From NCBI GenBank assembly GCA_021604365.1, contig BQIZ01000009.1, positions 1 through 44,802 on the forward strand: DNA of 44,802 nucleotides, given 5' to 3'. Under the pieces are notes generated by a model, which was not told where the DNA came from, did not search any database, and saw only the letters and a list, made by a program, of their open reading frames with translations. This stretch comes from Nitrospirales bacterium (GTDB lineage: Bacteria; Nitrospirota; Nitrospiria; Nitrospirales; UBA8639). The translations under genes were made by a program, and so were the position numbers. Of the stretch, positions 22,916-37,474 are shown one piece after another (positions within the stretch are counted from its first letter, which is position 1; the number at the start of each line of letters is the position of its first letter).

Positions 22916-25900
22916 ATGAACAAGGTTGAGCAAGATCCCTTATCCGTGAAGAGTTGGGAATGGCTTCGAGAAATCGTTGATGAGGCGTGTCAGCCCATCG
23001 GTCCATATTGGCCGATGAAATCATTTGCCTATTATAATCCCATTCGGGACCTCGAGCATTTACCATTTGCCCGTGCGATTGAAGCCGCGAACCAGTTGTT
23101 GGGTGCCAAGGGGTTTCTGCCTGTTGAAGAGTATCGCCAAATTTTTCATCAAGGTCGAATCACTCTTTCGGCCATTGGCCAGGCTCTTCGGCGCGTAGGA
23201 CCCCCCCTGCCGTCTCGAACCACCGTGCAGGTTGGTGACCGTAGCATTCATGTCCAAGATGTCTGGCGCATTCATGCTATATACGGGATTGAAATCTTAC
23301 CTGCTGTGCAGCTGACGTGGACACTGGAACTAGAAGGTCTGAACACACGATTTCGATTCGATCTTCCGGAGGATTCTCGAACATTCATTATTAACCGAAC
23401 TATTCGGGAGTGCGAGAGGTGCCGACATGATCCGGAATCGGCCTATCTGCACAACCTCTGGAAAAGTTCGTTGGCGGCATGCCAATTGTTCGACCCTGTG
23501 TCGGGTATGGGTTCATTTCAGGCATCGGACCTTGGTCGGAGCTCTCATCAATCAGGAAAAGAAGCCCATTCTGTCACGGTTGATTTACCTAGAGACCGAA
23601 CGCTGAGTGATTGGCTGGACAGTGAGACGGGGAGCGCGCTGGTTGAGACCATTAATACGCACATGATCAAATGGATTGCGGCATTTGTTGACGAAGGTGT
23701 TGCGGGATGGAGTATGCCTTCAAGAGGTAAGGGGTTTTTTGCTGCATGGCGAGAATTGGCCGAATGGGATCTCTCAGGCAGATTTCTCGGGATTCCGGAT
23801 CTCCGACAAAAGTTTCGCGAATTGTCCGACGTACCGGAAGAGATGTTGTGCAAGCATCTGCAGGATCTCAATATCCCGAAAGAACGTTGGCAAGAGTATC
23901 TCTCTCGTCATCTTGCTCAATTGCCAGGTTGGGCAGGGTTTATCCGCTGGCGTGGAGACCATGCCGGATATCCTGCCCAACAACACTATCCCATTGATCC
24001 TCTGCAATATCTGGCCGTCCGGCTCTTTTATGAATCGGGAATGGTAGAGGGACTTTGCCAACGGGAATGGGGCATCAAAGGGACGTTACCTGGACTCCAA
24101 GCCTACTGGAACGAACAGGGTAAGCATGAACAGGCCTTGAGTCTCTCTTCTTCTCACGCCACTGATGCTAATGATCACGCGGTGTGCCATCATGCTTGGC
24201 GACTTTTTCACCTGGCTCAGTTTTTGGAATTGACCCCAATTGAGGTGCACGAATTGTCTTATAGCGACATGGCAACCTTATTGGAATGGCTGGATCTCTT
24301 TCCCCAATCTTCACATGGAACGGTATGGCTTGAAGCGTATGAGGACGTCTATCGAGAGTCATTGCTGAGGAACATCAGCGGACATCAAGCTGTGGCTCCC
24401 GTTTGCAATGAACGGCCTCGGGCGCAAGGGATTTTTTGTATTGATGCTCGCTCAGAATCGTTTCGTCGTCATCTTGAAGCTCAGGGACCGTATGAAACAT
24501 TTGGGTATGCGGGATTTTTTGGGGTGTCCATGAGTCATGTGGCATTTGATAGCCACGACCACTTGGCTTTGTGTCCAATTTTGTTGACACCAAAAGCGGA
24601 AGTGATCGAAGTTCCGCGGATGGGGCAGCATGAAAGGGTGAAGAGCTACCTTTCCGGTACCAGATGGCATCAATTCAGTCATCTCCTCTTTCATGATCTG
24701 AAACACAATCCATTTGCCTCCTTTATGCTGATTGATGTGCTAGGAATGTTTTTCAGCGTTGGATTGGTCGGGAAAACGTACTTTCGAACCTCCTTCGATG
24801 CCGTCAAACAGTGGGTGCAGGAATGGTTGGGGAGCACCGTTGTCACGCATATTCCTGTTGAGCCTTCAGGCGATGATGAGAAAAAAAATCCGCGTGTGGG
24901 AGAACTGACACAAGGTTTTACCACATTGGAGCAAGCGGCCTTTGTGGAGGGTGGATTGCGTGTGATCGGGCTCACGAAAAATTTTGGCCGGTTTGTGATG
25001 GTCTGCGGTCATGGAAGCCAATCCGAGAATAATCCCTATTATGCGGCCCTGGACTGTGGCGCATGTGGGGGCAGTCATGGTGACCCGAATGCTCGTGCTT
25101 TTTCGGCCATGGCCAATAATCCAGAGGTTCGACAGATTCTGAACGATCATGGGTTGGTCATTCCGGAGGACACCTGGTTTCTTCCCGCCAAACATAACAC
25201 AACCACAGATCGAGTGATGTTGTATGACCTTGTCGATGTTCCTGCTATCCATTTAGAGGAATTAGGACTGTTGGTGAGAGACTTGGAGCAGGCTGGTACA
25301 CATCAGGCATTGGAACGATGTGGGCGAATTCCCGGCGCTCCGACAGCCGTGTCTCCTAATGACGCGTTTAAACATGTCAGGCAACGGAGCATGGATTGGG
25401 CGAATTCTCGTCCTGAATGGGGATTATCAGGGAACGCGGCCTTTTTGATTGGAAGGCGGGCTCTTACCAAGGGGCTGGATTTGGAAGGGAGAGTCTTTTT
25501 GCATTCCTACGATCCCGACTCCGATCTGGATGGGAGCCTTCTTGAAAAAATCATGACCGCACCCCTCATCGTGGGTGAATTGATTAACTTAACGTATTAC
25601 TTTTCCGGCGTGGATCCTTGGGCCTATGGGAGTGGAAGTAAGGTCATTCACAATATGGTTGGCGGAGTTGGAGTGATGTTGGGGAGTCAAAGCGATCTGC
25701 AAAAAGGCCTTCCCCTTCAATCGGTAAACGATGGGGCGCGGCATTATCATGAACCCATGCGCTTGCTCGCCATCATTGAGGCACCGCCGGATCGAATCCG
25801 GTCTATCATTCAGAAGCATGCCTTGCTTCAACATGTCTTCCATAACCAATGGATGAATGCCATAGCGTTTGAGCCAGATTCCAAAGGATTTTCACGGTAT

Positions 25901-25942
25901 CTCTCGGATTCAACGTGGGAACCCGTCACGACTACAATATGA
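22916..25942 (+). CDS. dabA: DabA-type inorganic-carbon accumulation subunit (DUF2309/UPF0753)
   Basis: 1008 aa. DabA is the cytoplasmic, beta-carbonic-anhydrase-like subunit of the DAB energy-coupled CO2 pump: it hydrates CO2 to bicarbonate while a membrane partner supplies ion gradient. The predicted zinc ligands are present with the family spacing: C508 and D510 in FCIDARSE, H699 in CGHGSQSENNPYY, and C714 in ALDCGACGGSHGDPNA. H699 to C714 is 15 residues, as in the characterised Halothiobacillus protein (H524, C539). The N-terminus (PIGPYWPMKSFAYYNPIRDL) and C-terminus (INLTYYFSGVDPWAYGSGSK, NMVGGVGVMLGSQSDLQ) also fit. The protein is about 180 residues longer than that reference. It is soluble or peripheral. 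The mrp-like operon follows after 477 bases on the same strand. A weak sigma-70 promoter (TTGACG-17-TCTAAA) lies just upstream. Confidence 0.93.
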   Translation: MNKVEQDPLSVKSWEWLREIVDEACQPIGPYWPMKSFAYYNPIRDLEHLPFARAIEAANQLLGAKGFLPVEEYRQIFHQGRITLSAIGQALRRVGPPLPSRTTVQVGDRSIHVQDVWRIHAIYGIEILPAVQLTWTLELEGLNTRFRFDLPEDSRTFIINRTIRECERCRHDPESAYLHNLWKSSLAACQLFDPVSGMGSFQASDLGRSSHQSGKEAHSVTVDLPRDRTLSDWLDSETGSALVETINTHMIKWIAAFVDEGVAGWSMPSRGKGFFAAWRELAEWDLSGRFLGIPDLRQKFRELSDVPEEMLCKHLQDLNIPKERWQEYLSRHLAQLPGWAGFIRWRGDHAGYPAQQHYPIDPLQYLAVRLFYESGMVEGLCQREWGIKGTLPGLQAYWNEQGKHEQALSLSSSHATDANDHAVCHHAWRLFHLAQFLELTPIEVHELSYSDMATLLEWLDLFPQSSHGTVWLEAYEDVYRESLLRNISGHQAVAPVCNERPRAQGIFCIDARSESFRRHLEAQGPYETFGYAGFFGVSMSHVAFDSHDHLALCPILLTPKAEVIEVPRMGQHERVKSYLSGTRWHQFSHLLFHDLKHNPFASFMLIDVLGMFFSVGLVGKTYFRTSFDAVKQWVQEWLGSTVVTHIPVEPSGDDEKKNPRVGELTQGFTTLEQAAFVEGGLRVIGLTKNFGRFVMVCGHGSQSENNPYYAALDCGACGGSHGDPNARAFSAMANNPEVRQILNDHGLVIPEDTWFLPAKHNTTTDRVMLYDLVDVPAIHLEELGLLVRDLEQAGTHQALERCGRIPGAPTAVSPNDAFKHVRQRSMDWANSRPEWGLSGNAAFLIGRRALTKGLDLEGRVFLHSYDPDSDLDGSLLEKIMTAPLIVGELINLTYYFSGVDPWAYGSGSKVIHNMVGGVGVMLGSQSDLQKGLPLQSVNDGARHYHEPMRLLAIIEAPPDRIRSIIQKHALLQHVFHNQWMNAIAFEPDSKGFSRYLSDSTWEPVTTTI

Positions 25943-26419
25943 TTTTGCAATGGGAAGGAAAGTCTTTTTGACTTTTGCCGTGCTTGGAATGGCTGAGCGA
26001 ATCACGCATCATCTCAAATGAGAGATGTTTAATTCCTAGGGATTTCGGTTTCACCTACAGGATCCAGTTGTCCTAAGTAGGCTGGGTAATAGACTCCAAT
26101 CGAATCTTTCCCTTGATTCGCAGTTGTGGATGGAAGAGGGTGCCTGTTATAAGGTCAGAGGCTTGTGGGTATTGAAAGCGATGAGGCTCATCTTTGTATT
26201 TGGCGCAGACCAAGTAGGGAGAGTGGGAGCATCCGGTTTTCCGAAATGTCATTTGCATCATGGCCGTAGGGTTCCCAGCATTTTGTTTGTTCCGATAGGC
26301 TGGAGACAGTACATGCCAACCAGGTTTTTTGAATACTTCATTCGAAAAACATATGGTTGGCTTTTTTTTTACCGTATCGGATTCATTGAGTTAAGATTTT
26401 GGTCTGAGAATAGCGCTGG
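25943..26419. other. Spacer between dabA and the mrp-like operon
   Basis: No convincing gene. Frames are open on both strands (plus 26124-26423, minus 26073-26261) but neither has a motif or ribosome site. A small hairpin, CATCTC (26010-26015) with GAGATG (26022-26027) followed by TTT, could be a weak terminator for dabA. The antiporter genes may therefore have their own promoter here, which I could not identify. Confidence 0.4.
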
Positions 26420-26911
26420 ATGAAGTCTTCTTATCTGAAACAGTTTATCGCTAACACCTTGGCTCTTTTTAGTGTCTGGCTTGTGTTATCAGGGAAGTAC
26501 GACAATTTTCACCTCGTACTTGGATTCATGGCATCTTGTGGAGTGGCGTGGTTAAACACCGGATTCCCTCATTCTCCCTTTCATAATTTTCCATGGGCTC
26601 GTGTTGTTCTGTACAGCCCCTGGCTCTTTCTTCGAATTGTCGAGAGTAGTCTGCACCTGACGAAACTCATTCTCAATCCCTCATTACCCATTAATCCCAG
26701 ACTCATTACTTATCAGTCTCATTTAAAGCATCGGGGTGCCATTGTCCTGCTTGGAAATTCCGTGACCTTGACGCCTGGCACCATTACCGTTGAAGCCAAC
26801 GGCAATACATTTCTGGTGCATGCGATAGATGAGACAGCAGCAAAGGATCTCACGACAGGCCGGATGGAGCGTAAACTCGCCTGGGTTTTTCAGGAAGATA
26901 CGAATCACTGA
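26420..26911 (+). CDS. mrpE: MrpE/MnhE-like cation antiporter subunit
   Basis: 163 aa with three N-terminal membrane helices (LALFSVWLVLSG, LVLGFMASCGVAWL, ARVVLYSPWLFLRIV) and a cytoplasmic C-terminal domain. The MnhE signature is clear: ESSLHLTKLILNPSLPINP, GAIVLLGNSVTLTPGTITVE and FLVHAIDE. MrpE is an accessory subunit needed for assembly of Mrp-type Na+/H+ antiporters. It opens the antiporter block, and its TGA overlaps the mrpF ATG by one base. There is no strong ribosome site before the ATG. Confidence 0.9.
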   Translation: MKSSYLKQFIANTLALFSVWLVLSGKYDNFHLVLGFMASCGVAWLNTGFPHSPFHNFPWARVVLYSPWLFLRIVESSLHLTKLILNPSLPINPRLITYQSHLKHRGAIVLLGNSVTLTPGTITVEANGNTFLVHAIDETAAKDLTTGRMERKLAWVFQEDTNH

Positions 26912-27177
26912 TGATTGATTTTTTTCTGTTTTTATTAATCACGTTGTCTTTTCTGATTCTCGTGTATCTGTACCGGGTGATCCAGGGTCCCACCGTGTTT
27001 GATCGGGTATTAGGGTTAGCGGGAATTTCGACCAAAGCCATCATTCTGGGTGTTGTGATGGGAACAGTCTATGACCGTGTAGAGATGTTCGTGGATATCT
27101 CCACGGGGTATGCGCTTCTCAATTTGGTTGGAGCATTTGCCATTGCCAAATTTCTTGAGCAACGAGGGACACCCTAA
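26911..27177 (+). CDS. mrpF: MrpF/MnhF-like subunit
   Basis: 88 aa, three membrane helices. The family block VIQGPTVFDRVLGL.GISTKAI is present, as is the conserved aspartate of the third helix region (FVDISTGYALLNLVGAFAIA). MrpF is a small core subunit of Mrp antiporters, packed with MrpG and MrpE. Its stop is immediately followed by the mrpG ATG (TAAATG). Confidence 0.9.
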   Translation: MIDFFLFLLITLSFLILVYLYRVIQGPTVFDRVLGLAGISTKAIILGVVMGTVYDRVEMFVDISTGYALLNLVGAFAIAKFLEQRGTP

Positions 27178-27477
27178 ATGGTCGTTCTTGCCATCGGCTT
27201 AATTCTGGTGGGGGTATTTTTTCTGGTGGTGGCTGCCATTGGTACAATACGCCTTCCCGACGTATTTACGCGATCCCATGCGGTCTCCCTGACTGATTCC
27301 CTTGGTGCCATTTGCGTCCTCGCGGGCCTTGCTTTGTACCAGGGATTCGGGATCAATATGCTGAAGATCCTGGTCGTTCTGGTCTTGCTCATCCTTTTAA
27401 ATCCGGTCATTGCTCATGCCACCATTCGAGCGGCCAATCGGGCGGGCCTCAAACCTCAGACGAAGGAAGACCCATGA
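27178..27477 (+). CDS. mrpG: MrpG/MnhG-like subunit
   Basis: 99 aa, three membrane helices. The conserved block AAIGTIRLPDVFTRSHAVSL followed by TDSLGAICVLAGLAL identifies MrpG (normally GLLRLPD.ytRmHAatK.tLG). The later helix MLKILVVLVLLILLNPVIAH ends in the typical N-P-x-x-x-H. It overlaps the next gene by four bases, implying translational coupling. Confidence 0.9.
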   Translation: MVVLAIGLILVGVFFLVVAAIGTIRLPDVFTRSHAVSLTDSLGAICVLAGLALYQGFGINMLKILVVLVLLILLNPVIAHATIRAANRAGLKPQTKEDP

Positions 27478-28007
27478 TGTATTCAGTGAATATTGCTTTG
27501 CTGCTACTCCTGGTCCTGACGGCCGCCAGCGCAACATTTTTGGTCAAGGAATTGATGAGTTCAGTGTTTATTCTCGGGTCGTATAGTTTCTTCCTGTCTC
27601 TGGTTTGGGCCTGGCTGGGTGCGGTGGATGTGGCATTTGTGGAAGCCGTTATTGGAGCTGGGTTGGGCACCGTGTTGTTCCTCATCACTCTGTTTGATAC
27701 CGCTCCAAAGGATAGCCGCCTTCGTCGTCCCCCTCCTCCTCTTGCAGGAGTGCTGGGGTTGCCCTTGTTGGGCCTTCTGTTGTTACTCGCGGCTAATGAT
27801 CTTCCTCAGTTCGGCGACCCGACCTCACCGCCCAACGTGCATATTTCTCCTGTGTACTTACAGAATAGCTATGCGGACACGCTCACGCCGAATGTGGTCA
27901 CCTCGGTGCTGATGGACTATAGGGCATTTGATACGTTGATTGAGACCGTGGTGATTTTTACGGCTGGCATTGCCTGTGCGTTGTTATTAAGGGAGCCAGG
28001 CTCATGA
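27474..28007 (+). CDS. MbhD/MbhE-like protein: detached C-terminal half of MrpA
   Basis: 177 aa from ATG 27474, which overlaps the mrpG stop; ATG 27477 is an alternative. The first half (LVKELMSSVFILGSYSFFLS, VDVAFVEAVIGAGLGTVLFL) is the DUF4040/MbhD module with the family's AFtEa.lGaG pattern. The second half (TPNVVTSVLMDYRAFDTLIE, TVVIFTAGIACALLL) is the MbhE/MrpB-N module. In Mrp antiporters these two modules form the C-terminal part of MrpA. Here they are a separate gene, and the NuoL-like N-terminal part is encoded by the gene at 30320. Confidence 0.85.
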   Translation: MMYSVNIALLLLLVLTAASATFLVKELMSSVFILGSYSFFLSLVWAWLGAVDVAFVEAVIGAGLGTVLFLITLFDTAPKDSRLRRPPPPLAGVLGLPLLGLLLLLAANDLPQFGDPTSPPNVHISPVYLQNSYADTLTPNVVTSVLMDYRAFDTLIETVVIFTAGIACALLLREPGS

Positions 28008-28453
28008 AACAGATCCATGACAGCATCATTGTTCAGAGCATGAGTCGATTGCTCATTCCTCTGGCACAGTTATTTGCCTTTTATGTCTTGTTCTTCGGCC
28101 AGTACGGCCCGGGAGGAGGATTTGTAGCTGGCGTCATTTGGACGACTAGTATGATCCTGGCCTTTTTGGTGTTTGGGCTGAAGTCCCCTCAGGGGCGTCT
28201 GGTAGAAAAGGTGTTGCATGGCGATGGGATCGGATTGATTATTTTTGTGGGAGTGGGTGGTTTATGTCTCATCGGAGGTGGGGAATTTCTCAACTATGCC
28301 AATTTGGAAATTCCGGGTTTGGATGCTCCGGCACGTCGGTACATGGGGATTCTATTAGCACAAATCGGGGTGGCCGTGGACGTGGCGGTAACCGGTATCT
28401 CTATTGTTCTCAGCTTGGCCTATCACGATACCGAGCAGGAGTATGATGTTTGA
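28004..28453 (+). CDS. mrpB: MrpB/MnhB-like subunit
   Basis: 149 aa, four membrane helices. The MnhB signature is SRLLIPLAQLFAFYVLFFGQ followed by YGPGGGFVAGVI; the GPGGGF loop is diagnostic. The last helix ARRYMGILLAQIGVAVDVAVTG also fits. It is coupled to its neighbours by a four-base overlap upstream and an 11-base overlap with mrpC. Confidence 0.92.
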   Translation: MKQIHDSIIVQSMSRLLIPLAQLFAFYVLFFGQYGPGGGFVAGVIWTTSMILAFLVFGLKSPQGRLVEKVLHGDGIGLIIFVGVGGLCLIGGGEFLNYANLEIPGLDAPARRYMGILLAQIGVAVDVAVTGISIVLSLAYHDTEQEYDV

Positions 28454-28823
28454 GTTGATTGGAGGGTGGCTCCAGCGCCCCAACTATATTGCCTTTGTGC
28501 TGCTGTTTCTGTGGGGCATCTATATTATGGTGACCCGGTACAATCTCGTGAAAAAACTTATCGGGATGTATCTCATGCAAACGAGTGTGATTTTTTTTCT
28601 CGTCACGACAAGTGCCAAGCGAGATGCTACTGTGCCTATTTTGCTCTCCACTACGGAAATTATTCAGCCTGAAGTCTATGCCAACCCTCTCCCTCATGTT
28701 TTGACATTGACGGCGATTGTCGTGGGCGTTGCCACCCTGGGAGTATCTTTGGCCCTGGCCGATGCCATTTATAAAAAATACGGCAGCCTGGACGAGGAAG
28801 AAATTCTCAAAAGGATGGAATGA
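28443..28823 (+). CDS. mrpC: MrpC/NuoK-like subunit
   Basis: 126 aa from ATG 28443 (or 28446, both in frame). Three helices in NuoK order: NYIAFVLLFLWGIYIMVTRY, NLVKKLIGMYLMQTSVIFFL and ANPLPHVLTLTAIVVGVATL. The block PLPHVLTLTAIVVGVA is the MrpC hallmark. The C-terminal tail KKYGSLDEEEILKRME is short and acidic. MrpC is the NuoK homologue in Mrp and contributes to the ion path between antiporter modules. Confidence 0.9.
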   Translation: MMFELIGGWLQRPNYIAFVLLFLWGIYIMVTRYNLVKKLIGMYLMQTSVIFFLVTTSAKRDATVPILLSTTEIIQPEVYANPLPHVLTLTAIVVGVATLGVSLALADAIYKKYGSLDEEEILKRME

Positions 28824-30289
28824 CGCGACACCTTCCCGTAATTCTTTTCCTTTTACCTCTCGGGTTGGCCATTTGTCTGCCATTAATCGGAATTAGGCGC
28901 CGGGAGTGGTGTCGGCCATTAGCGATTGGAGTGCTGGCTGCCATGGTCCCGGTCTCCTTCGCCAGTCTGGTAGGCGTTCTTCGCAACGGAACCATTCATT
29001 ATGACTTTGGGGGATGGGCCGCTCCGGTCGGGATTGAGTGGGTGGCGGACGGATTGGCCAGCGTCATGACCGTGGCCTTAAGTCTCGTCGGGTTAGTGTG
29101 TATCACCTTCCTTAGCTCGGTATTATTTCCCTATCTCGGCAGCCGGATTGTCCCGTTTTATACGCTGGTTTTGCTATTGATCGCCAGTCTGACCGGCATG
29201 GTGTTTGCCGGAGATTTGTTCAATCTTTTCGTTTTCTTAGAAGTATCCGCCTTGTGTGCCTATGCCTTGGTGGGGTTGGCTGGCGGGAAGGCGCTTGTTG
29301 CCGGATTCCGGTATTTAATTTTAGGCACCTTCGGAGCCTCTTTGTATCTTCTGGGAGTGGGGTATTTGTACGCCGAGACGGGTACGCTCAATATGGCGGA
29401 TCTGGCGCAGCGGGTGCCACCCTTGGTGGGTTCTAAGGCCATCGCTGTCGGAGTGTTATTTATGTTTATCGGTCTGGGTATCAAGATGGCATTAGTGCCC
29501 CTCCACGGGTGGTTGCCGGATGCCTACACGCATGCTCCGGACCGCGTATCACCCATGCTGGCTTCCTTAGTGACCAAGGTCGCCCTCTATGGATGGATTC
29601 GTATTATGTTTTGGGTGCTCGGAGCCCATGCGGTGGTCTACCGGATTCCCGTTCTGTTTTTAGTGGGAGTGTTGGGCGCTCTTGCGGCCTTGGTTGGCGC
29701 ATTCCTGGCTTTGTCCCAGACAGAAATTAAACGCATGTTTGCGTATGGAGGCCTTTCGCATATCGGATTGATTCTGGTGGGAATTAGTCTCGGGAATCAA
29801 ACCGGTTTTGTCGGAGGAGTGTTTTATCTCTTGAATGATGCTGTGATGCAGGCGGGTTTGTTTTTCTGGGCAGGGGGGATTATTCACCTGTATGGGGTTC
29901 GCACGATTGAGGATCTTGGGCGATTGCAAGGAGGAGCGGGATGGATGTCGGTGGCCCTGGTCGTCATAGCCCTGTCAATGATCGGAATTCCTCCAACAGG
30001 GGGATTTTTTGGAAAATGGTATATCATTCTTGGCGCGGTGGAAGCACAAAATTACCTTGCCATTGTCGCGGTGCTGATTGCGACTCTGTTAACTCTGGCC
30101 TACTTTGCTAAATTATTTGAACGGGTATTTCGGGAACGCTCCGCCCAGCAACCTGCTGTCATACGTGAGATTCCGTTGGCGGTGAAAATTAGTCTCGGCG
30201 CCACGTCGGTGGCGGTCATTGTTTTGGGACTGATGAGCGATCACATTGTCAGCTTTCTCCTCAAGAACGCGGTTCCACCCGGGCTTTAG
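28820..30289 (+). CDS. mrpD: MrpD-like (NuoN-like) antiporter subunit
   Basis: 489 aa, about 14 membrane helices. The proton_antipo_M core is intact: TM5 glutamate E141 in FLEVSALCAYALVG, the central lysine in GLGIKMALVPLHGWLPDAYT, HAPDRVSPMLASLVTKVALY, and the discontinuous helix near GGLSHIGLILVGISLG. It overlaps mrpC by four bases (ATGA). The PDAYTHAPDRVSP stretch is more like MrpD than NuoM or NuoL. It is one of three antiporter-type subunits in the operon, each a potential H+ or Na+ channel. Confidence 0.9.
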   Translation: MTRHLPVILFLLPLGLAICLPLIGIRRREWCRPLAIGVLAAMVPVSFASLVGVLRNGTIHYDFGGWAAPVGIEWVADGLASVMTVALSLVGLVCITFLSSVLFPYLGSRIVPFYTLVLLLIASLTGMVFAGDLFNLFVFLEVSALCAYALVGLAGGKALVAGFRYLILGTFGASLYLLGVGYLYAETGTLNMADLAQRVPPLVGSKAIAVGVLFMFIGLGIKMALVPLHGWLPDAYTHAPDRVSPMLASLVTKVALYGWIRIMFWVLGAHAVVYRIPVLFLVGVLGALAALVGAFLALSQTEIKRMFAYGGLSHIGLILVGISLGNQTGFVGGVFYLLNDAVMQAGLFFWAGGIIHLYGVRTIEDLGRLQGGAGWMSVALVVIALSMIGIPPTGGFFGKWYIILGAVEAQNYLAIVAVLIATLLTLAYFAKLFERVFRERSAQQPAVIREIPLAVKISLGATSVAVIVLGLMSDHIVSFLLKNAVPPGL

Positions 30290-30319
30290 CAGGATTGGGC
30301 ATATGGTGACCTCCTGATT

Positions 30320-32497
30320 ATGACATTCCTCATACTTATTCCCCTCCTTCCTCTGATGGCCGTTCTGATTCTCGTGCTGGGGAAACCCTGGCTTGGAGAG
30401 CATGGCCATAGGATCGGCATTCCTGCGATGGCTCTCTCCTTCGCGTTTTCCGCCATCGCGTTTGCTCGCGTCGCATCAGACGGAGCCTTCTCCATTCCAC
30501 TCTACCGATTATTCAAATCGGGAGACCTGGTTGTAGAATTGGGTCTCTATGTCGACCAGCTAACGGTGTTGCTTCTGCTCTTGGTGACCGGTGTGAGCAG
30601 CGTGGTGCATGTGTATGCGTCTCGTTATATGATCGGCGATCACCGGTATAACCGTTTCTTTGCGGTCATCGCGCTGTTTACGTTTTCGATGATCATGCTG
30701 GTTATGAGCAATAATCTGCTCATGCTGTTTGTGTTCTGGGAGATCATGGGAATTTGTTCGTATTTGTTGATTTCTCATTGGGGGGAGCGGCAATCATCTG
30801 CTCAGGCCGCGACCAAGGCCTTTCTCGTGAATTCGGTCGCGGATGTGGGCTTAGGTTTTGGGGTCATTCTGACCTTTTCCACTTTTGGAACACTGGATAT
30901 TCAGACGATTTTAGGGGAAGCCCCATCCATACAGGGAAACACCATCAACCTGTTCGGCTGGCTCGGGCTGGACGTGCCCATTCATATCCTCACGCTCATT
31001 ACGCTTGTTCTTTTCCTGGGAGCCATGGGAAAGTCCGCACAAGTGCCATTCCATGTCTGGCTCCCCTTTGCCATGGAAGCGCCCACACCCGTTTCCGCGT
31101 TGATTCACGCCGCGACCATGGTGAATGCCGGACCCTTCTTGTTGGTTCGCATGAGTCCCCTCGTGATCCTTTCCCCCGAAGCCATGACCGTCATTGCGTT
31201 GATTGGAGGTGTGACCGCACTTTTTGCAACCCTTGTCTCCCTGACTCAGGTGGATATTAAGCGCATGCTGGCGTTTTCCACCATTGGTCAAATCGGTTTC
31301 ATGATCATGACTTGCGGAGTCGGAGCCTTTGTCATCTCTATTTTTCATATGTTGGCCCATGGATTTTTGAAAGGATTTTTATTTCTGTCAACTGGAAATG
31401 CACTTCGTTCCGTTGGCTCCCATGAACATGTGCCTTCGTCGCATTTTCCTCATGGCTCATCAATACGTTCTATGGGGCCCCTAGTGTTAGGCGCTTTGCT
31501 GTTGGCCTGTCTTCCGCCGTTCCTCATTTTTTTCGGGCCGTATGAGCAATTGTGGATGATTCAACCGGGATCCTCTGCCCAATGGACATTTTGGATTTTG
31601 GGGTTTCTGACGGTATTTTTTTCTGCCATGTATGTCATGCGGGGTGTCCTGGTCTTGTTTGGTCAACCGCATTCGATAGGTCATGGAAGTGGAATGGGGA
31701 GGCAGGCCATTCAGCCTCGTTTCTTTTCCCCCATCCACTTTCTGGGAATTTTGGCTGTCATTGGAATATTTGGAAGCCTGTTGCTGGTCTTGTGGAGTTG
31801 GTTTTCGGAATTTCTGTCCCCTGTCGTGGGACATCGGATGGCCCAGATTCCAAAGACAACTTTGAGTGAGACCGGCTTGCAACTTCTTTTTGCATTTGCT
31901 GTGGCTATGGGCGGTATCGCGGTTGGGTACTTTTCCTTGACAAAATCCTCGGGTTCCTGGTTCCACCAATCGGATATGAGCAAGCGATGGTATGTCCACT
32001 TTATGAATAAATTGTATTTCGATGAAATATATGAGGCGTATGTTGTGGTGCCCACTCTTCGGTTGGCCCGATGGCTATGGCGGGTTGTCGACCGGAACGT
32101 GTTCGACGCCCTTATCATGGGAATCGCAAATGTGTCAGTGTTGGCGGCGAAGTGGATGTGGCGGGTGGTGGACCTACGGGGGATTGACGGGCTGGTAGTA
32201 GGCTTGGGACGGAACAGCGTAGGAATGGCCGGTTGGCTTTGGCGGGTGGTGGACCTTCGCGGTGTCGATCGGGTCGTCGTGGGTATCGGCCAACGCAGCC
32301 TTGGTATTGCCAACTGGCTATGGAAAAGAATCGAGATCAAAGTTCTCGATAAGAATGTGGTTCGTGCCGGGAATCAAGCCGCGAGCACAGGGAATATGAT
32401 GCAGGAACTAGAGCCTCGCACGTTACAGCACCATTTACTGGTCATGATTTTCTGGCTCATTGTGGGAATTGGGTTGTTGTTTTGGTTTGTCGTGTGA
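30320..32497 (+). CDS. NuoL/MrpA-N-like antiporter subunit with repeat-expanded C-terminus
   Basis: 725 aa. The NuoL core has the N-terminal domain (GLYVDQLTVLLLLLVTGVSS, VYASRYM), TM5 glutamate E141 in FWEIMGICSYLLI, TM7 lysine K238 in GAMGKSAQVPFHVWLPFAME, and the APTPVSALIHAATMVNAGPF block. After KLYFDEIYEAYVV, where NuoL usually has one WRVVD segment, a 27-residue unit is repeated four times: W585, W612, W639 and W666 each start W-x-W-(R/K)-(V/R)-(V/I)-(D/E), followed by about 20 residues with VVVG-type hydrophobics. A final helix closes the protein. Being NuoL-like, it is also the best candidate for the DabB-type partner of DabA and stands in for the missing N-terminal half of MrpA. Confidence 0.9.
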   Translation: MTFLILIPLLPLMAVLILVLGKPWLGEHGHRIGIPAMALSFAFSAIAFARVASDGAFSIPLYRLFKSGDLVVELGLYVDQLTVLLLLLVTGVSSVVHVYASRYMIGDHRYNRFFAVIALFTFSMIMLVMSNNLLMLFVFWEIMGICSYLLISHWGERQSSAQAATKAFLVNSVADVGLGFGVILTFSTFGTLDIQTILGEAPSIQGNTINLFGWLGLDVPIHILTLITLVLFLGAMGKSAQVPFHVWLPFAMEAPTPVSALIHAATMVNAGPFLLVRMSPLVILSPEAMTVIALIGGVTALFATLVSLTQVDIKRMLAFSTIGQIGFMIMTCGVGAFVISIFHMLAHGFLKGFLFLSTGNALRSVGSHEHVPSSHFPHGSSIRSMGPLVLGALLLACLPPFLIFFGPYEQLWMIQPGSSAQWTFWILGFLTVFFSAMYVMRGVLVLFGQPHSIGHGSGMGRQAIQPRFFSPIHFLGILAVIGIFGSLLLVLWSWFSEFLSPVVGHRMAQIPKTTLSETGLQLLFAFAVAMGGIAVGYFSLTKSSGSWFHQSDMSKRWYVHFMNKLYFDEIYEAYVVVPTLRLARWLWRVVDRNVFDALIMGIANVSVLAAKWMWRVVDLRGIDGLVVGLGRNSVGMAGWLWRVVDLRGVDRVVVGIGQRSLGIANWLWKRIEIKVLDKNVVRAGNQAASTGNMMQELEPRTLQHHLLVMIFWLIVGIGLLFWFVV
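32072..32395 (+). repeat. Four tandem 81-bp in-frame repeats within the NuoL-like gene
   Basis: The TGG codons that open each unit lie at 32072, 32153, 32234 and 32315, an exact 81-base period. Units 2 and 3 are closest (both encode WRVVDLRG-(I/V)-D followed by VVVG/LVVG); units 1 and 4 have diverged. The exact period and graded similarity indicate tandem duplication within the gene. Confidence 0.85.
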
Positions 32498-32632
32498 TTC
32501 CGCAGATAGCTTGACAATGATTGAGTGATAACGAACACGATACCGAAATCCAATCCCGCGGTGTGTGAAAAACGAGAGGGCGTCTTTCATGTCCTGGAGG
32601 TGCCATGACCGGCATGTCATGAAGGGGAGACT

Positions 32633-34141
32633 ATGAACACAATCTTCACTGAACATCTTTTGAGTATCATGATTGCCATTCCGTTTTTGGGCATTGCGAT
32701 CATTGCCTTCATTCAGGATCAGGAATGGATTCGGCGCGTGGCACTTGGGTGTACCATGGGGGATGGTGTTCTCTCACTGGTGCTAATAAAAGAGTTCGAT
32801 TTTTCCATTCAAGGAATGCAATTCGTGGAGCGGATGGCATGGATGCCGACCTTTAATATTCAATATGCTGTTGGAGTGGATGGTATTAGTCTTCTTCTGG
32901 TTTTACTCACGACTCTGCTCTGTCCCTTTTGCGTCCTGTGCTCCTGGAAGTCAATTACCACTCGTGTACGCTCCTTTATGGCCATGATTCTGTTGGTCGA
33001 AGGGGCCATGATTGTGGTGTTTACCGCTCTGGACCTGTTTTTGTTTTTTATGTTGTGGGAAGTCACGATGATTCCCATGTATTTCATGATCATTTTGTGG
33101 GGTGGCCCCCAACGGATAGCAGCCGGCATCAAATTCGTCTTGTATAGTTTGTCAGGAAGCCTGATCTTACTTCTGGCGATACTCGGGTTGTACGTGGAAG
33201 GAGGGCGGACATTTGATATTTTAGCGTTGGCGGAGAACACCTATTCCCCCGATGCCCAGTTTTGGATATTTCTGGCGTTTTTCCTAGCCTTTGCCATTAA
33301 ATTACCCATGTTGCCGTTTCACACATGGTTACCGGATGCCCATTCCGAAGCCCCCACTGCCGGAAGCGTCCTATTGGCCGGGGTGCTGTTAAAAATGGGT
33401 GGGTATGGATTTTTACGCTTTTGTCTCCCCATGTTCCCGGAAGCTTCAGTGACCTTTGCCCCCTTTATCTTATGGTTATCCGTGGCGGCTATTGTGTATG
33501 GGGGGTATATGGCCTTGGCACAGTCGGACCTGAAAAAGCTGGTGGCCTATTCGTCCATTTCGCATATGGGATTCGTGACCTTAGGGATTTTTGTGTTCAA
33601 TAATTATGGTATTCAAGGAGCCATCTTGCAGATGGTGAACCATGGAATAACCACAGGAGCCCTCTTTTTGGCTGTCGGTCAATTGTATGATCGGACCCAT
33701 AGCCGGTCGATTCAGGATTACGGAGGATTGCAAAAATCGATGCCTCGATTTGTGGCACTTTTTTGTCTGTTTTCAGTGGCATCCTTCGGACTGCCTGGTA
33801 CATGCAATTTTATTGGTGAATTTTTGGTCTTGGTCGGAACGTCTTTTGAAAGCTATGTCATGGTGTTGTTGTCCATGGGGGGCATTGTCCTTGCGGCGGC
33901 GTATATGCTTTGGATGCTCCAACGGGTGGTGTTGGGACAACCCAAAAATTCCACCATCGCACAACTACCGGATCTGAGTATGCGAGAGCTGGCCACGGTG
34001 ATCCCGCTTGCGGTTTTAATCTTGGGGATCGGCTTGTACCCGTCACCACTTATGGAAATGATGGATTCGAGCGTCACGCACTTGGCTCAGCATATGGCAC
34101 AGTATCAGGTGGGGATGATCCATGAAGTGATCCTTCGGTAA
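32633..34141 (+). CDS. NuoM-like antiporter subunit
   Basis: 502 aa, about 14 membrane helices, with GGGGAGACT before the ATG as ribosome site. NuoM features: AVGVDGISLLLVLLTTLL, TM5 glutamate E143 in MLWEVTMIPMYFMIILWGG, TM7 lysine K223 in AIKLPMLPFHTWLPDAHSEA, then PTAGSVLLAGVLLKMGGYG and AYSSISHMGFVTLGIF. Mrp antiporters do not usually carry an NuoM, so this is an extra pump-type module at the end of the operon, 135 bases after the NuoL-like gene. The rest of complex I is absent, so it is not a respiratory NDH-1 locus. Confidence 0.92.
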   Translation: MNTIFTEHLLSIMIAIPFLGIAIIAFIQDQEWIRRVALGCTMGDGVLSLVLIKEFDFSIQGMQFVERMAWMPTFNIQYAVGVDGISLLLVLLTTLLCPFCVLCSWKSITTRVRSFMAMILLVEGAMIVVFTALDLFLFFMLWEVTMIPMYFMIILWGGPQRIAAGIKFVLYSLSGSLILLLAILGLYVEGGRTFDILALAENTYSPDAQFWIFLAFFLAFAIKLPMLPFHTWLPDAHSEAPTAGSVLLAGVLLKMGGYGFLRFCLPMFPEASVTFAPFILWLSVAAIVYGGYMALAQSDLKKLVAYSSISHMGFVTLGIFVFNNYGIQGAILQMVNHGITTGALFLAVGQLYDRTHSRSIQDYGGLQKSMPRFVALFCLFSVASFGLPGTCNFIGEFLVLVGTSFESYVMVLLSMGGIVLAAAYMLWMLQRVVLGQPKNSTIAQLPDLSMRELATVIPLAVLILGIGLYPSPLMEMMDSSVTHLAQHMAQYQVGMIHEVILR

Positions 34142-34602
34142 ATGACATGACTGGCAGCAGTCGCGACAAAGACTATTAGCCCCTGCCGGGAGATCTCTCG
34201 GTTGGTGACCACGAGGGATGACTATCAGGCTTCTTTCAACCCCGAATCCCTTCTTGCCAATAATCTTCCCCCTTCATCTTTCCCCTTAGATCCCCTGTGA
34301 ATTAAAGCAGCCTCAGTTGTGGTCCTTGGGAAATGTTGACAGGCCATTCTGACGTTTTTGCCAAATTTTCACAGTGTTCTTGCTGTTTTCTCAAGTGGCC
34401 TGTCAAAAATGCCGAGAATAATCTTCTCTGCTCTATTGTGTGGTGGAGGCATCTTCCATTTACTAGGGGAAGGATGATGGTAGTACCCAGAAGAGTAGAT
34501 CGAAACAATATAGGCCAAAAGTTACCAATCAGCCTTGAATCCTCAGGTTTCATTGATTACCGAGAGATTGGGAGAGGCGGTAAACGTGGAGGAGCAGGAA
34601 CC
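34142..34602. other. Intergenic region with long inverted repeat
   Basis: No gene is called; an upstream in-frame start at 34333 for the lipoprotein is rejected. TTGACAGGCCA (34336-34346) and TGGCCTGTCAA (34396-34406) form a perfect 11-bp inverted repeat separated by 49 bases. It may be the terminator of the antiporter operon, an operator pair, or part of an RNA. Confidence 0.45.
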
Positions 34603-35682
34603 ATGAAACTGATCAATATTTTACTTCTGGCAATGGTGTGTGCGGTTGTGGTGGGCTGTGTGAGCCAGCAATCACATGAACGTGCTCTCCAAGAATATGA
34701 AGAGAGCCAAGAATCCAGCGCCGTGGAACTTGAACGGTTGCAGCAGGCTGTTGAAGAGAAGCAAATGGAAGTCATGCAGCTTCAAGAAACCAAAGTGGCC
34801 CTCGAGCATACCGTTGAAGTGCAAGACCAAATTAAGGAAGAACAACTAGCCGCGGTTCAACAAGAAGTCGAAGCACTGTATGCACAAATCCGGAAACTCA
34901 GCAACTCGGAAGGAGTCGGTTCTCTGTCCGATCCTCTTTTTGGGGGAGGGCCGGTGGATTACCATGATTTGAGGGCTGCTCTTACACAAATCCGGTCGGG
35001 TTTAGATGGGCAAATTGGCCAGGTGTCTCATCTTCGTGAAGAGAATAGTCTGCTGGAGAAAGAGCTTTCGGCTTTGGAAGCTAGACTCAAGGAAGTGGAG
35101 CGGTTAAAACATGAGTTGGAATTGGTCCGAAAAGCTCGTGAAATTCAGGAAGCGCAACTGGCAAAAGTCAAATATGAAGTGTTCACAGTCGGAGAAGAGA
35201 TCGATCGCATTACCAAAGCGCTTGAGGACAAATTTGGCAAAAGTCTTGTGGTGACTCAACACCATGATCGATTAGTGTTGACGATGCTGGGGCAAATCCT
35301 CTTTGAATCCGGTGAAGCGGATTTGACTCCTCTAGGTCTTACGATCATGAAACAGGTGGGCCAGGTGTTAGTCACCTTGCCGGGGAAAAGCATCCAAGTT
35401 GAAGGGCACACGGACAACCACCGCATTTATGGACAGCTGCAAAAACAGTATCCCACGAATTGGGAACTTTCAACCGCCAGGGCCACCACAGTTTTGCGGT
35501 ATCTGATTGAGCAAACCGGAATGAATCCCAATCAATTCTCAGCAACGGGTTATGCGGATAGGCGACCCGTGATGACTAATGAAACTGAGGAGGGAAGAGC
35601 CCAAAATCGTCGTGTGGAAATCGTTCTGTACCCGGAACGGGTCGTTCAGGATAATGAAACTGTTGCAACGCTGGCCCGGTAA
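34603..35682 (+). CDS. OmpA-family peptidoglycan-binding lipoprotein
   Basis: 359 aa from ATG 34603, which has GGAGGAG just before it and is followed by a lipoprotein signal (MKLINILLLAMVCAVVVGC, lipobox VVGC, Cys19). A long coiled coil follows (about 25-210, heptad-rich with ERLQQAVEEKQMEVMQLQE and EKELSALEARLKEVERLKHE). A C-terminal OmpA domain (about 225-345) carries the peptidoglycan-binding signature VEGHTDNHRIYG and NWELSTARATTVLRYL, then RRVEIVL. The product is probably anchored in the outer membrane with a periplasmic stalk gripping peptidoglycan. No obvious link to the neighbouring antiporter operon. Confidence 0.88.
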   Translation: MKLINILLLAMVCAVVVGCVSQQSHERALQEYEESQESSAVELERLQQAVEEKQMEVMQLQETKVALEHTVEVQDQIKEEQLAAVQQEVEALYAQIRKLSNSEGVGSLSDPLFGGGPVDYHDLRAALTQIRSGLDGQIGQVSHLREENSLLEKELSALEARLKEVERLKHELELVRKAREIQEAQLAKVKYEVFTVGEEIDRITKALEDKFGKSLVVTQHHDRLVLTMLGQILFESGEADLTPLGLTIMKQVGQVLVTLPGKSIQVEGHTDNHRIYGQLQKQYPTNWELSTARATTVLRYLIEQTGMNPNQFSATGYADRRPVMTNETEEGRAQNRRVEIVLYPERVVQDNETVATLAR

Positions 35683-35830: not shown

Positions 35831-37474
35831 TTAATGCACTGCCGGTTCTGTGGGATTGCCGGAGCTACTCAGGCTATGATGTTGGAGGAGTCCGGTGTCG
35901 TATAGATATGCTGTCGCCGGATCTAATAAAAAATATACGGCAAACAGACCGACACTCGCCATGGTCAACGTATAGGGAAGCGCCATCCAGACCATTTTCC
36001 CATAAGATAAACGGATAACCGGAGCCAGTGAAGAGGTTAATAAAAATAAAAATGCGGCCTGTCCGTTTGGAGTCGCCACACTGGGAATATTCGTGCCGGT
36101 ATTGATGGCAACGGCCAAAAGGTCAAATTGGTCACGGGTAATGGTGCCCGCCTGGTAGGCACGGAGCACTTCCTGGACGTAAACCGTCGCAACAAAGACA
36201 TTGTCGCTGATGGCCGACAGAATGCCATTGGCCAGGTAAAACATGCCGATTTGATGCGATCCCTCCAAACTTAATCCATATCCGATAATGCCAGAAAACA
36301 GGTTCTGGTCCTGGATCACGGCCACAATGGCGAAAAAAACGACGAGGAGCGCCGTGAAGGGAAGCGCTTCCTTGAACGCCTCTCCAAGTTGGTGCTCATC
36401 GATTATCCCGTTAAAGGCGGTAATAAACACGATCACCGTGAGACCGATGATTCCAACTTCCGCCAGGTGAAAGGCTAAGGCAAAAATTAACCAAATGCCC
36501 GCAATCGCTTGAATAATAAGCTTCGCCGTGTCCGCGGAATCTCGTCGTTTCTGTTGCTCGGTTTCGAATTCCACCAAAATGAGGCGAACGGGATCCGGGA
36601 GCTGAAAGCCATAATCAAACCATCGTAATTTCTCAACGATGGTGCAGGTGAACCATCCCGTGACCAGAACCGGAAGCGTCACGGGGGCCATGCGCAAAAA
36701 GAACTCCAAAAATTCCCAGCCCGCTTTGTCCGCGATCAATAAATTTTGGGGTTCCCCTACAAGAGTACAGACCCCACCTAATGCGGTACCAACCGCTCCG
36801 TGCATTAATAAATTGCGAAGGAAGCCTCGGAAATTGTCCAAATTTTCACGGTGGAGAGAGTCGATCTCATGATCGCTTGTCGAATCATAAGAGGTCTGAG
36901 ACGATTTGCCAGAGGCCACCCGGTGGTAAATGTTATAGAAACCCAACGCGACGGCAATGATGACTGCTGTGACCGTCAAGGCATCGAGGAATGCCGAAAG
37001 AAAGGCACCCATGATCGAAAACAAGAGCCCCAACAAAACTTTTGAACGGACGCCCAATAAAATTTTGGTAAACAGAAACAGGAGTAAATCTTTCATGAAG
37101 TAGATCCCGGCCACCATGAAAATCAATAGCAGGATCACTTGAAAATTATTGAGTGCCTCATGATAGACCGTTGCCGGAGTGGTCATCCCCAATAAGACAG
37201 CTTCAAGTGCGAGCAAGCCACCGGGTTGTAGCGGATAACTTTTGAGAGCCAGGGCTAAGGTAAAGATAAATTCCAGTATGAGCACCCACCCGGTGTAAAA
37301 GGAGCCAATGCTCATCAATAAGATGGGATTGAGGATTAAGAATCCTAGAATGGTCAGCTTGTACCAGGTTGGAGTGTGGTTCAAGAAATTCTGAATGAGC
37401 GCCTGAGGGACTGTCGTTTTCATTTCAGTTAGGTGACCTTTCGGACCGGTGGTCCCGGATGGAGTCTGACTCAT
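35831..37474 (-). CDS. nhaB: NhaB-like Na+/H+ antiporter
   Basis: 547 aa, about 12 membrane helices. The N-terminal portion ([50 protein letters not shown]), the block [20 protein letters not shown] with NLLIA following, and the closing [20 protein letters not shown] and [20 protein letters not shown] are those of NhaB. It exports Na+ in exchange for H+. An internal start at 37423 (MKTTVPQAL) is also possible. It follows the SulP gene on the same strand after 146 bases, and the same order occurs at 8091-11000 where nhaB is broken. The likely role is to restore the Na+ gradient used by a Na+-coupled SulP. Confidence 0.9.

Follow-up and report, generated by a model that had tools for sequence, protein, structure and literature searches.

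We analysed a stretch of 44,802 nucleotides from a Nitrospirales bacterium (GenBank assembly GCA_021604365.1, contig BQIZ01000009.1), hereafter the window, which is the entire contig C9 of a draft genome of 4.02 Mb in 303 contigs that is 92.75% complete. Ten open reading frames (ORFs) lie on its forward strand at 22916-34141 in the order dabA, mrpE, mrpF, mrpG, MbhD/E, mrpB, mrpC, mrpD, NuoL-like and NuoM-like. Chemolithoautotrophs are known to trap CO2 with energy-driven DAB pumps, which have been described with a single membrane subunit (DAB2) or with two (DAB1), and we consider it fairly probable from the sequences that the ten products form one complex, in which DabA, a vectorial carbonic anhydrase, would sit on an Mrp-type antiporter with a DabB-like distal NuoL. 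All ten genes were assigned to Pfam families above the curated cut-offs, and the gene order and single strand given in the original prediction are borne out by ORF coordinates, Pfam and NCBIfam. The features of the set are the following.

22916..25942, forward strand: dabA (1008 aa), Pfam PF10070 at 843.9 bits, of the Mrp-linked DabA clade
24437..25057, forward strand: span of the DabA active-site residues C508, D510, R512, H699 and C714, from alignments
24734..24736, forward strand: DabA D607, at the position of finger Glu444 of DabA2, from the phmmer alignment to 9rd0_A
26420..26911, forward strand: mrpE, PF01899 (MNHE) at 114.2 bits
26911..27177, forward strand: mrpF, PF04066 at 39.9 bits, with Ala at the Asp35 site in the alignment to 6z16_F
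27178..27477, forward strand: mrpG, PF03334 (MnhG) at 77.6 bits
27477..28007, forward strand: MbhD/MbhE-like gene, PF13244 (MbhD) at 52.7 and PF20501 (MbhE) at 34.4 bits in a single gene
28004..28453, forward strand: mrpB, PF04039 (MnhB) at 73.9 bits
28446..28823, forward strand: mrpC (NuoK-like), PF00420 (Oxidored_q2) at 76.3 bits, aligned to 6z16_C; its start codon is at 28443 or 28446
28820..30289, forward strand: mrpD, antiporter-type, Proton_antipo_M
30320..32497, forward strand: NuoL-like subunit, Proton_antipo_M, NCBIfam TIGR01974 at 471.7 bits (cut-off 407.5)
31538..31543, forward strand: P407-Y408 of the NuoL-like subunit (K399-D400 in E. coli NuoL), from alignments
32021..32494, forward strand: long lateral-helix region of the NuoL-like subunit, with four 27-aa W-motif units and the last transmembrane helix (TM), from W-motif spacing
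32633..34141, forward strand: NuoM-like subunit, Proton_antipo_M, TIGR01972 at 618.9 bits (cut-off 263.8)

The set holds MrpB, C, D, E, F and G together with counterparts of both halves of MrpA, which is split between the NuoL-like and the MbhD/MbhE-like genes. Aligned to 6z16_A and 6u8y_D, the latter corresponds to the MrpA C-terminal part and retains a DYRAFDTLIE motif as well as the MbhD-type Glu. The antiporter genes had been described as mostly overlapping, and this is true from mrpE through mrpD, where neighbours overlap or abut; gaps of 477 bp, 30 bp and 135 bp precede mrpE, the NuoL-like gene and the NuoM-like gene, respectively. At the positions of E. coli NuoM residues 144, 234, 265, 348 and 407, MrpD has E, K, K, D and K and the NuoM-like subunit has E, K, K, H and E. 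These five channel residues are kept in all 49 MrpD rows compared (44 distinct; at least 46% identity to the window) and in all 44 NuoM-like rows (39 distinct; at least 60% identity). No redox or quinone subunit of complex I was found among the ten genes by Pfam and NCBIfam, the other ORFs of the window having been inspected by eye only.

The only PDB sequence that matches the window DabA at E ≤ 0.001 is DabA2 of the DAB2 pump (9rd0, E = 5e-112). The zinc-site Cys, His and Cys and the Asp-Arg dyad are intact in the window DabA. In the DAB2 structure, two Cys and one His bind the zinc, and the water on the zinc is held by the Asp (PMC13144422; this and the other papers given by PMC number are cited for passages of their text). 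All four residues named as zinc ligands in the original prediction (C508, D510, H699 and C714) are thus present, with D510 not itself a ligand. In DAB2, a two-helix finger of DabA inserts Glu444 at the DabB site that corresponds to Lys399/Asp400 of NuoL, and activity is lost when this Glu is replaced by Ala or Gln (PMC13144422). Glu444 aligns with Asp607 in the window DabA, so that the carboxylate is retained and the residue differs. Among 69 distinct DabAs, labelled by clade according to best BLAST hit and size, the finger residue is Asp in all 43 of the window clade (including five not beside mrpE, in genomes G008, G013, G018, G021 and G028) and Glu in all 26 others (including two, the genome's own second DabA and L173, without DabB in the stretch examined). 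The two groups form the two sides of one branch in the DabA tree (support 80). An AlphaFold2 model of DabA, of medium quality (mean predicted local distance difference test, pLDDT, 69.7), places helices at 572-595 and 599-621 where the finger would be, with pLDDT of 43-68 by block. In two relatives (L055 and L056), the DabA in the set is about 1260 aa long and a P-II-like gene directly follows the NuoM-like gene.

The partner site in the NuoL-like subunit is changed as well. The window protein retains TM5 Glu141, TM7 Lys238, His343, His347 and Lys351 and lacks the TM12 Lys/Asp pair. In all 44 distinct NuoL-like sequences, the window included, the site of NuoL 399/400 has P, S, T, A or G at its first position and Y or F at its second. 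The TM12 Lys is likewise absent from 25 of 25 DabBs (three with a gap at the site), and it is present in 69 of 70 subunits of DabA-free Mrp or MrpA type, taken up to two per locus; the exception, L082, has Asp there, although its FKDE may reflect a shift of one residue. The counterpart of NuoL Glu144 in TM5 is retained in 44/44 NuoL-like sequences and in 0/25 DabBs, and the DabB of DAB2 lacks both this Glu and the TM12 Lys399/Asp400 (PMC13144422). Three antiporter-type subunits had been proposed, each with its TM5 Glu; all three do keep it, but the NuoL-like subunit, with P407-Y408 where a counterpart of the MrpA N-terminal half with a TM12 Lys was looked for, is not a complete antiporter module. 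Because it keeps a Glu that DabB has lost, the system would be a variant rather than a plain DAB. The matched changes in the DabA finger and NuoL-like TM12, at a site that is filled by the finger carboxylate in DAB2, favour one complex, and the TM5 Glu together with a long lateral helix could let this subunit join DabA to the antiporter. A link of DabA to the antiporter through a DabB-like NuoL, rather than through three complete antiporters, is the arrangement that the comparative evidence supports.

In a tree of 28 proteins, NuoL-like and DabB are grouped against complex I and MrpA (99/98). Both this tree and a second one of 99 rows place the DabB, the NuoL-like and the DabA-free sequences each in a group of their own; complex I is not united in this way in the 28-protein tree. 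The NuoL-like subunit is probably a sister of DabB. We set aside the TM12 loss as proof of common descent with DabB, since the first tree groups the two and the second does not settle the question. We also rejected a reading of the NuoL-like and NuoM-like genes as strays from complex I, because the TM12 Lys is lost and the pair accompanies DabA in four phyla; the closest complex I proteins among those compared are 41-42% (NuoL) and 55-56% (NuoM) identical. The 50 Foldseek matches listed for the NuoL-like AlphaFold2 model (medium quality, mean pLDDT 65.8) begin with 43 chains of NuoL/ND5/NdhF type, followed in 44th place by an MrpA model; DabB2 does not appear in the list, which is uninformative on DabB kinship as 9rd0 is possibly outside the library.

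To explore how widely the gene order is kept, we scanned 84,980 species genomes with an MrpD alignment as an anchor, which is independent of DabA. At least 592 stretches from at least 527 relatives were found, and the best 80 were retained (79 distinct loci); two loci were added from a phylum search (L067 and L072). The NuoL type of the window occurs in 35 loci of this collection, 33 of them from the MrpD-anchored scan, where DabA played no part in selection. DabA lies upstream in 28 of the 35, and the other 7 begin at a contig end that is at most 70 bp from the first mrp gene, so that DabA is present in 28/28 loci not cut by their contig start. The NuoM-like gene comes next in 33/35, the contig ending first in L091 and L104. 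These loci belong to Nitrospirota (20), Nitrospinota (7), Acidobacteriota (7) and Planctomycetota (1), and 33 of the 35 come from metagenome-assembled genomes. Judging by its Nitrospirales relatives in this collection, the host of the window is probably related to marine-type Nitrospira. The search for co-occurrence that the original prediction had proposed thus finds the ten-gene order kept across four phyla. DabA-free Mrp loci of the same sets carry other antiporter-type genes, with no DabA match in the stretches examined. L072 has both kinds of locus next to each other, a DabA-Mrp set and, in divergent orientation, a DabA-free Mrp operon. Among 395 sampled Nitrospirota genomes, DabA was found in 171 and MnhE in 66; many thus have DabA alone or Mrp alone, which makes the link specific to this DabA clade and NuoL type and not to the whole families.

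The distance between dabA and mrpE was measured in 41 pairs (five duplicate loci counted, the window left out). It ranges from -41 to 1909 bp and is at most 25 bp in 17 pairs, the two genes overlapping or lying no more than 9 bp apart in 15. A DabA match is present in 46 and MnhE in 37 of the 48 family genomes surveyed, and in 29 of these 37 a DabA match lies within 3 kb of MnhE (G006 among them, with a broken copy), so that the adjacency is not due to chance. G032 and G026 are interrupted by contig ends. Eleven family genomes lack MnhE. In two of them, G002 and G039, the DabA is Asp-type or window-type and contig ends break up the Mrp set; these two were ruled out as exceptions, as the Mrp contigs begin within mrpF and stop within mrpC and have the remaining genes of the set. 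In G004, G005, G009, G010, G012 and G033, the DabAs examined carry the finger Glu, and no DabA match was found in G031 (84% complete). G003 and G011 have remnants of both a window-type DabA and mrpB, and G006 has a broken window-type DabA adjoining broken Mrp genes. Judging from these sequences, the DabA-Mrp set is decaying in the small-genome genus of G003, G006 and G011. This joint decay favours one complex, and the DabA and Mrp parts are nearly always kept or lost together. In the same three genomes, the remnants lie near a dabAB pair or part of one (L192, L193 and L052).

It is also relevant whether a conventional DabB is at hand for the window-type DabA. The genome of the window encodes another DabA at an end of contig C40, with a P-II-like gene beside it, and a DabB-type protein of 564 aa on contig C146. 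With this DabB as the query in 16 chosen genomes, DabB was found at 67% identity or more in three (G000, G021 and G022), and nothing above 45% identity was found in the other 13, in which the ORFs that match at more than 200 bits are 590-754 aa long, as expected for complex I NuoL and the NuoL-like subunit. Two of the genomes lacking DabB, G013 and G014, are single-contig assemblies that are 100 and 99% complete. Elsewhere, a weakly NuoM-like gene is seen between dabB and a DabB-type dabA (L050, L178, L180-L182 and L199), and L178 and L180 have two tandem dabB copies.

Taken together, the gene order in four phyla, the missing DabB in 13 of 16 genomes, the joint decay and the matched contact changes support but do not prove one DabA-Mrp machine, and several observations weigh against it. 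The Asp-for-Glu change and the Mrp link fall on one branch of the DabA tree and so represent one change long kept, not a repeated one. The AlphaFold2 models have low confidence at the finger and at the lateral helix. The gap between dabA and mrpE is 121-586 bp in 20 of the 41 pairs, and 477 bp in the window, so that dabA is possibly transcribed separately. A dabAB pair sits between the window-type DabA and mrpE in G018, G021 and G028. In G035, contig C519 (L195) starts 708 bp before mrpE with no DabA end seen, and the gap in near relatives is 477-484 bp. Finding DabA and the antiporter block independently of each other had been named as a point that would speak against their union; they are apart in position in G008 (different contigs) and in G013 (263 kb on its single contig), but both parts are present in each, and no DabB was found there. 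The missing DabB of G015 is weak evidence, since this genome is 78% complete and also has a DabB-type DabA; the latter (L203, G015:C1, ~799-802 kb) has no DabB in its 9-kb stretch and none at high identity in the genome. Furthermore, a grouping of NuoL-like with complex I is not rejected in the 28-protein tree (approximately unbiased test, p-AU 0.106), and the 99-row tree does not resolve the placement of NuoL-like next to DabB or the deep order.

The lateral helix shows a regular variation in length. From the DE.Y motif to the C-terminus, 38 NuoL-like sequences (duplicates included; 11 further ones without the search pattern left out) have 76 to 185 residues, and 36 of the 38 lengths lie within 2 of 76 + 27n (n = 0 to 4), with two outliers at 134. 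The window protein has n = 3, with 158 aa from DEIY to the end and similar 27-aa W-motif units, and the region is mostly helix in the AlphaFold2 model, at low confidence. For comparison, 72 residues follow the motif in E. coli NuoL and 106-112 in three NuoLs that we read as the complex I kind with two NuoMs, and the genome's own DabB ends within about 25 residues of the matching motif. In two-NuoM complex I, an insertion of 26-27 aa has been tied to one extra pumping subunit (PMC9040806). Repeat slippage can produce 27-residue steps; the step also holds in diverged repeats (L109, L110 and L112), which suggests selection on length. One speculative extension, which we regard as rather doubtful, is a multi-ion CO2 hydration machine between DAB and complex I in which the helix steps would gauge the number of antiporter units spanned and let lineages gear the ions used per CO2, possibly with more than one copy of NuoM-like taken per complex. 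No set with more than one NuoM-like gene of this kind was found among the scanned loci (the copy in L095 is in two pieces). The shortest helix (n = 0) is that of L107, a Nitrospina-type contig with rather diverged Mrp subunits and a DabA near those of other Nitrospinota.

The original prediction also allowed for Na+ as a driving ion. In the Anoxybacillus Mrp antiporter, the cation path includes MrpF Asp35, MrpC His37/His40, and MrpA Glu706 and Asp792/Glu796 (PMC7419157). In the window, the counterparts of the three MrpA residues are retained as the MbhD-type Glu and an Asp/Glu pair, MrpF has Ala at the Asp35 site (Asn in 49 of 51 DabA-linked rows), and MrpC has Thr and Ile at the His37 and His40 sites. 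Among DabA-free loci, MrpF Asp35 occurs in 4 of 22 rows (3 of the 22 off-pattern) and MrpC His37 in 4 of 26. Na+ driving is thus not supported, the MrpF and MrpC ligands being absent here and in most DabA-free relatives. We rejected a tie between this ligand loss and DabA, since most DabA-free operons of this Mrp kind have also lost the ligands; the losses have no bearing on DabA, and Na+ transport stays unproven. Among known pumps, DAB2 is reported probably to need no Na+, and MpsAB has been argued to use it (PMC13144422).

The genes, alignments and trees would fit the following mechanism. DabA would lie on the cytoplasmic side with its two-helix finger inserted in the NuoL-like subunit, and there Asp607 may replace the lost TM12 lysine and complete the half channel. 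The TM5 glutamate and the long lateral helix would couple the NuoL-like subunit sideways to the NuoM-like subunit, MrpD and the small Mrp subunits, and a downhill flow of ions (most likely H+, possibly Na+) through several linked modules would drive one-way hydration of CO2 to bicarbonate that feeds CO2 fixation. The assembly, the direction, the ion and the stoichiometry are all what we infer from the parts.

The surroundings of the set bear on other readings. The window holds what we take to be SulP-family genes at 8091-9890 and 37621-39330 and, presumably, an NhaD/NhaB-like antiporter gene at 35831-37474; a SulP-like ORF stands immediately upstream of dabA in many relatives. An OmpA-type gene at 34333-35682 follows the NuoM-like gene and is kept in several relatives; as a guess, it is perhaps the motB of the Ca. 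Nitrospira alkalitolerans paper.

An ordinary DAB heterodimer of DabA and the NuoL-like subunit, with the other Mrp genes as a separate and co-inherited antiporter, would agree with the probable sister relationship to DabB and the common TM12 loss. It seems unlikely to us, as the Mrp set without the NuoL-like gene would have no counterpart of the MrpA N-terminal half, the TM5 Glu kept throughout the NuoL-like sequences is lost throughout DabB, 76-185 aa follow the motif against about 25 in the own DabB, and the NuoM-like gene comes next wherever the contig reaches that far. A looser association, in which the Mrp genes are neighbours only and encode an Na+/H+ antiporter for salt or pH homeostasis whose Na+ gradient feeds bicarbonate symporters (SulP/BicA), while DabA works with another partner, finds support in the SulP-like and NhaD/NhaB-like genes of the window, whose family names are our assumption, and in the SulP-like gene upstream of dabA in relatives. 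Moreover, such a locus in Ca. Nitrospira alkalitolerans has been read in this way (PMC7784846), and Mnh has been linked to marine Nitrospirales (PMC12342949). We hold this to be very unlikely, because the 13 genomes without a detected DabB do have the window-type DabA, a plain antiporter leaves the TM12 loss of the NuoL-like subunit without explanation, and the characterised Na+ ligands are absent. The cycle might also run in reverse, CO2 hydration, favourable in an alkaline cytoplasm, driving cation export through the Mrp part; ion pumping by the exergonic reaction of COG3002 (DabA) has been raised (PMC5700660), but for DAB2, the relative with a solved structure, the proton motive force is given as the driving force (PMC13144422), and its bicarbonate accumulation is reported to collapse with an uncoupler. 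We consider this reversal extremely improbable.

Under the reading as one DabA-Mrp machine, the set can be compared with known systems. DAB2 (DabA2-DabB2 of Halothiobacillus neapolitanus, 9rd0) shares the DabA active site, a NuoL-kin partner without the TM12 Lys/Asp and a finger carboxylate; it differs in having one membrane subunit, no Mrp genes and a finger Glu, and in a DabB whose lateral helix is short and whose TM5-region Glu is lost (PMC13144422). The genome's own canonical DAB (the long DabA on C40 and the DabB on C146) has the same two families and active site, but has a finger Glu and Gln at the TM5 site of DabB, and Mrp genes are absent from the 4.7- and 3.7-kb stretches examined. 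DabA-free Mrp operons of group 3 type (L115 of Rokubacteria, L118 of Omnitrophota and L074-L081 of Nitrospirota) have the same mrpE-F-G-MbhDE-B-C-D order and mostly lack the same Na+ ligands; they differ in two other antiporter-type genes (~500 and ~600 aa) with the TM12 Lys and in having no DabA in the stretches examined. Cyanobacterial NDH-1MS, set beside by description and not by sequence, similarly has its vectorial carbonic anhydrase mounted on a membrane arm of complex I type but is driven by ferredoxin oxidation (PMC13144422).

Pieces of the system have been described before. Ca. Nitrospira alkalitolerans has a group 3 Mrp with NuoM/NuoL-like subunits, BicA and NhaB, with DabA unnamed in those passages (PMC7784846), and Mnh with extra nuoL/nuoM is reported in lineage IV Nitrospirales (PMC12342949). 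In clade C neighbourhoods, ybcC (dabA) stands upstream of nuoL with SulP and NuoM, and more membrane subunits were suggested to mean more ions (PMC5700660). A NuoL-DUF2309 operon is described in Leptospirillum (PMC9080137), and a warning has been given that nuo or mrp annotations may conceal a DabB (PMC8305020). Within the passages of the open PMC literature that we found, none joins DabA and a full Mrp set into one machine.

The DabA-Mrp machine is likely, on the sequence evidence, a new and larger version of the known DAB CO2-uptake pump. Nitrospirota and Nitrospinota, in which most of these sets occur, contain the main marine nitrite oxidisers. If the reading is correct, a carbonic anhydrase module can be coupled to an ion machine of many subunits that has no redox part, and the system would offer a direct way to test sideways energy transfer among the antiporter modules of the complex I family. 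Genes annotated as salt-tolerance antiporters would then have to be re-read as carbon-uptake genes.

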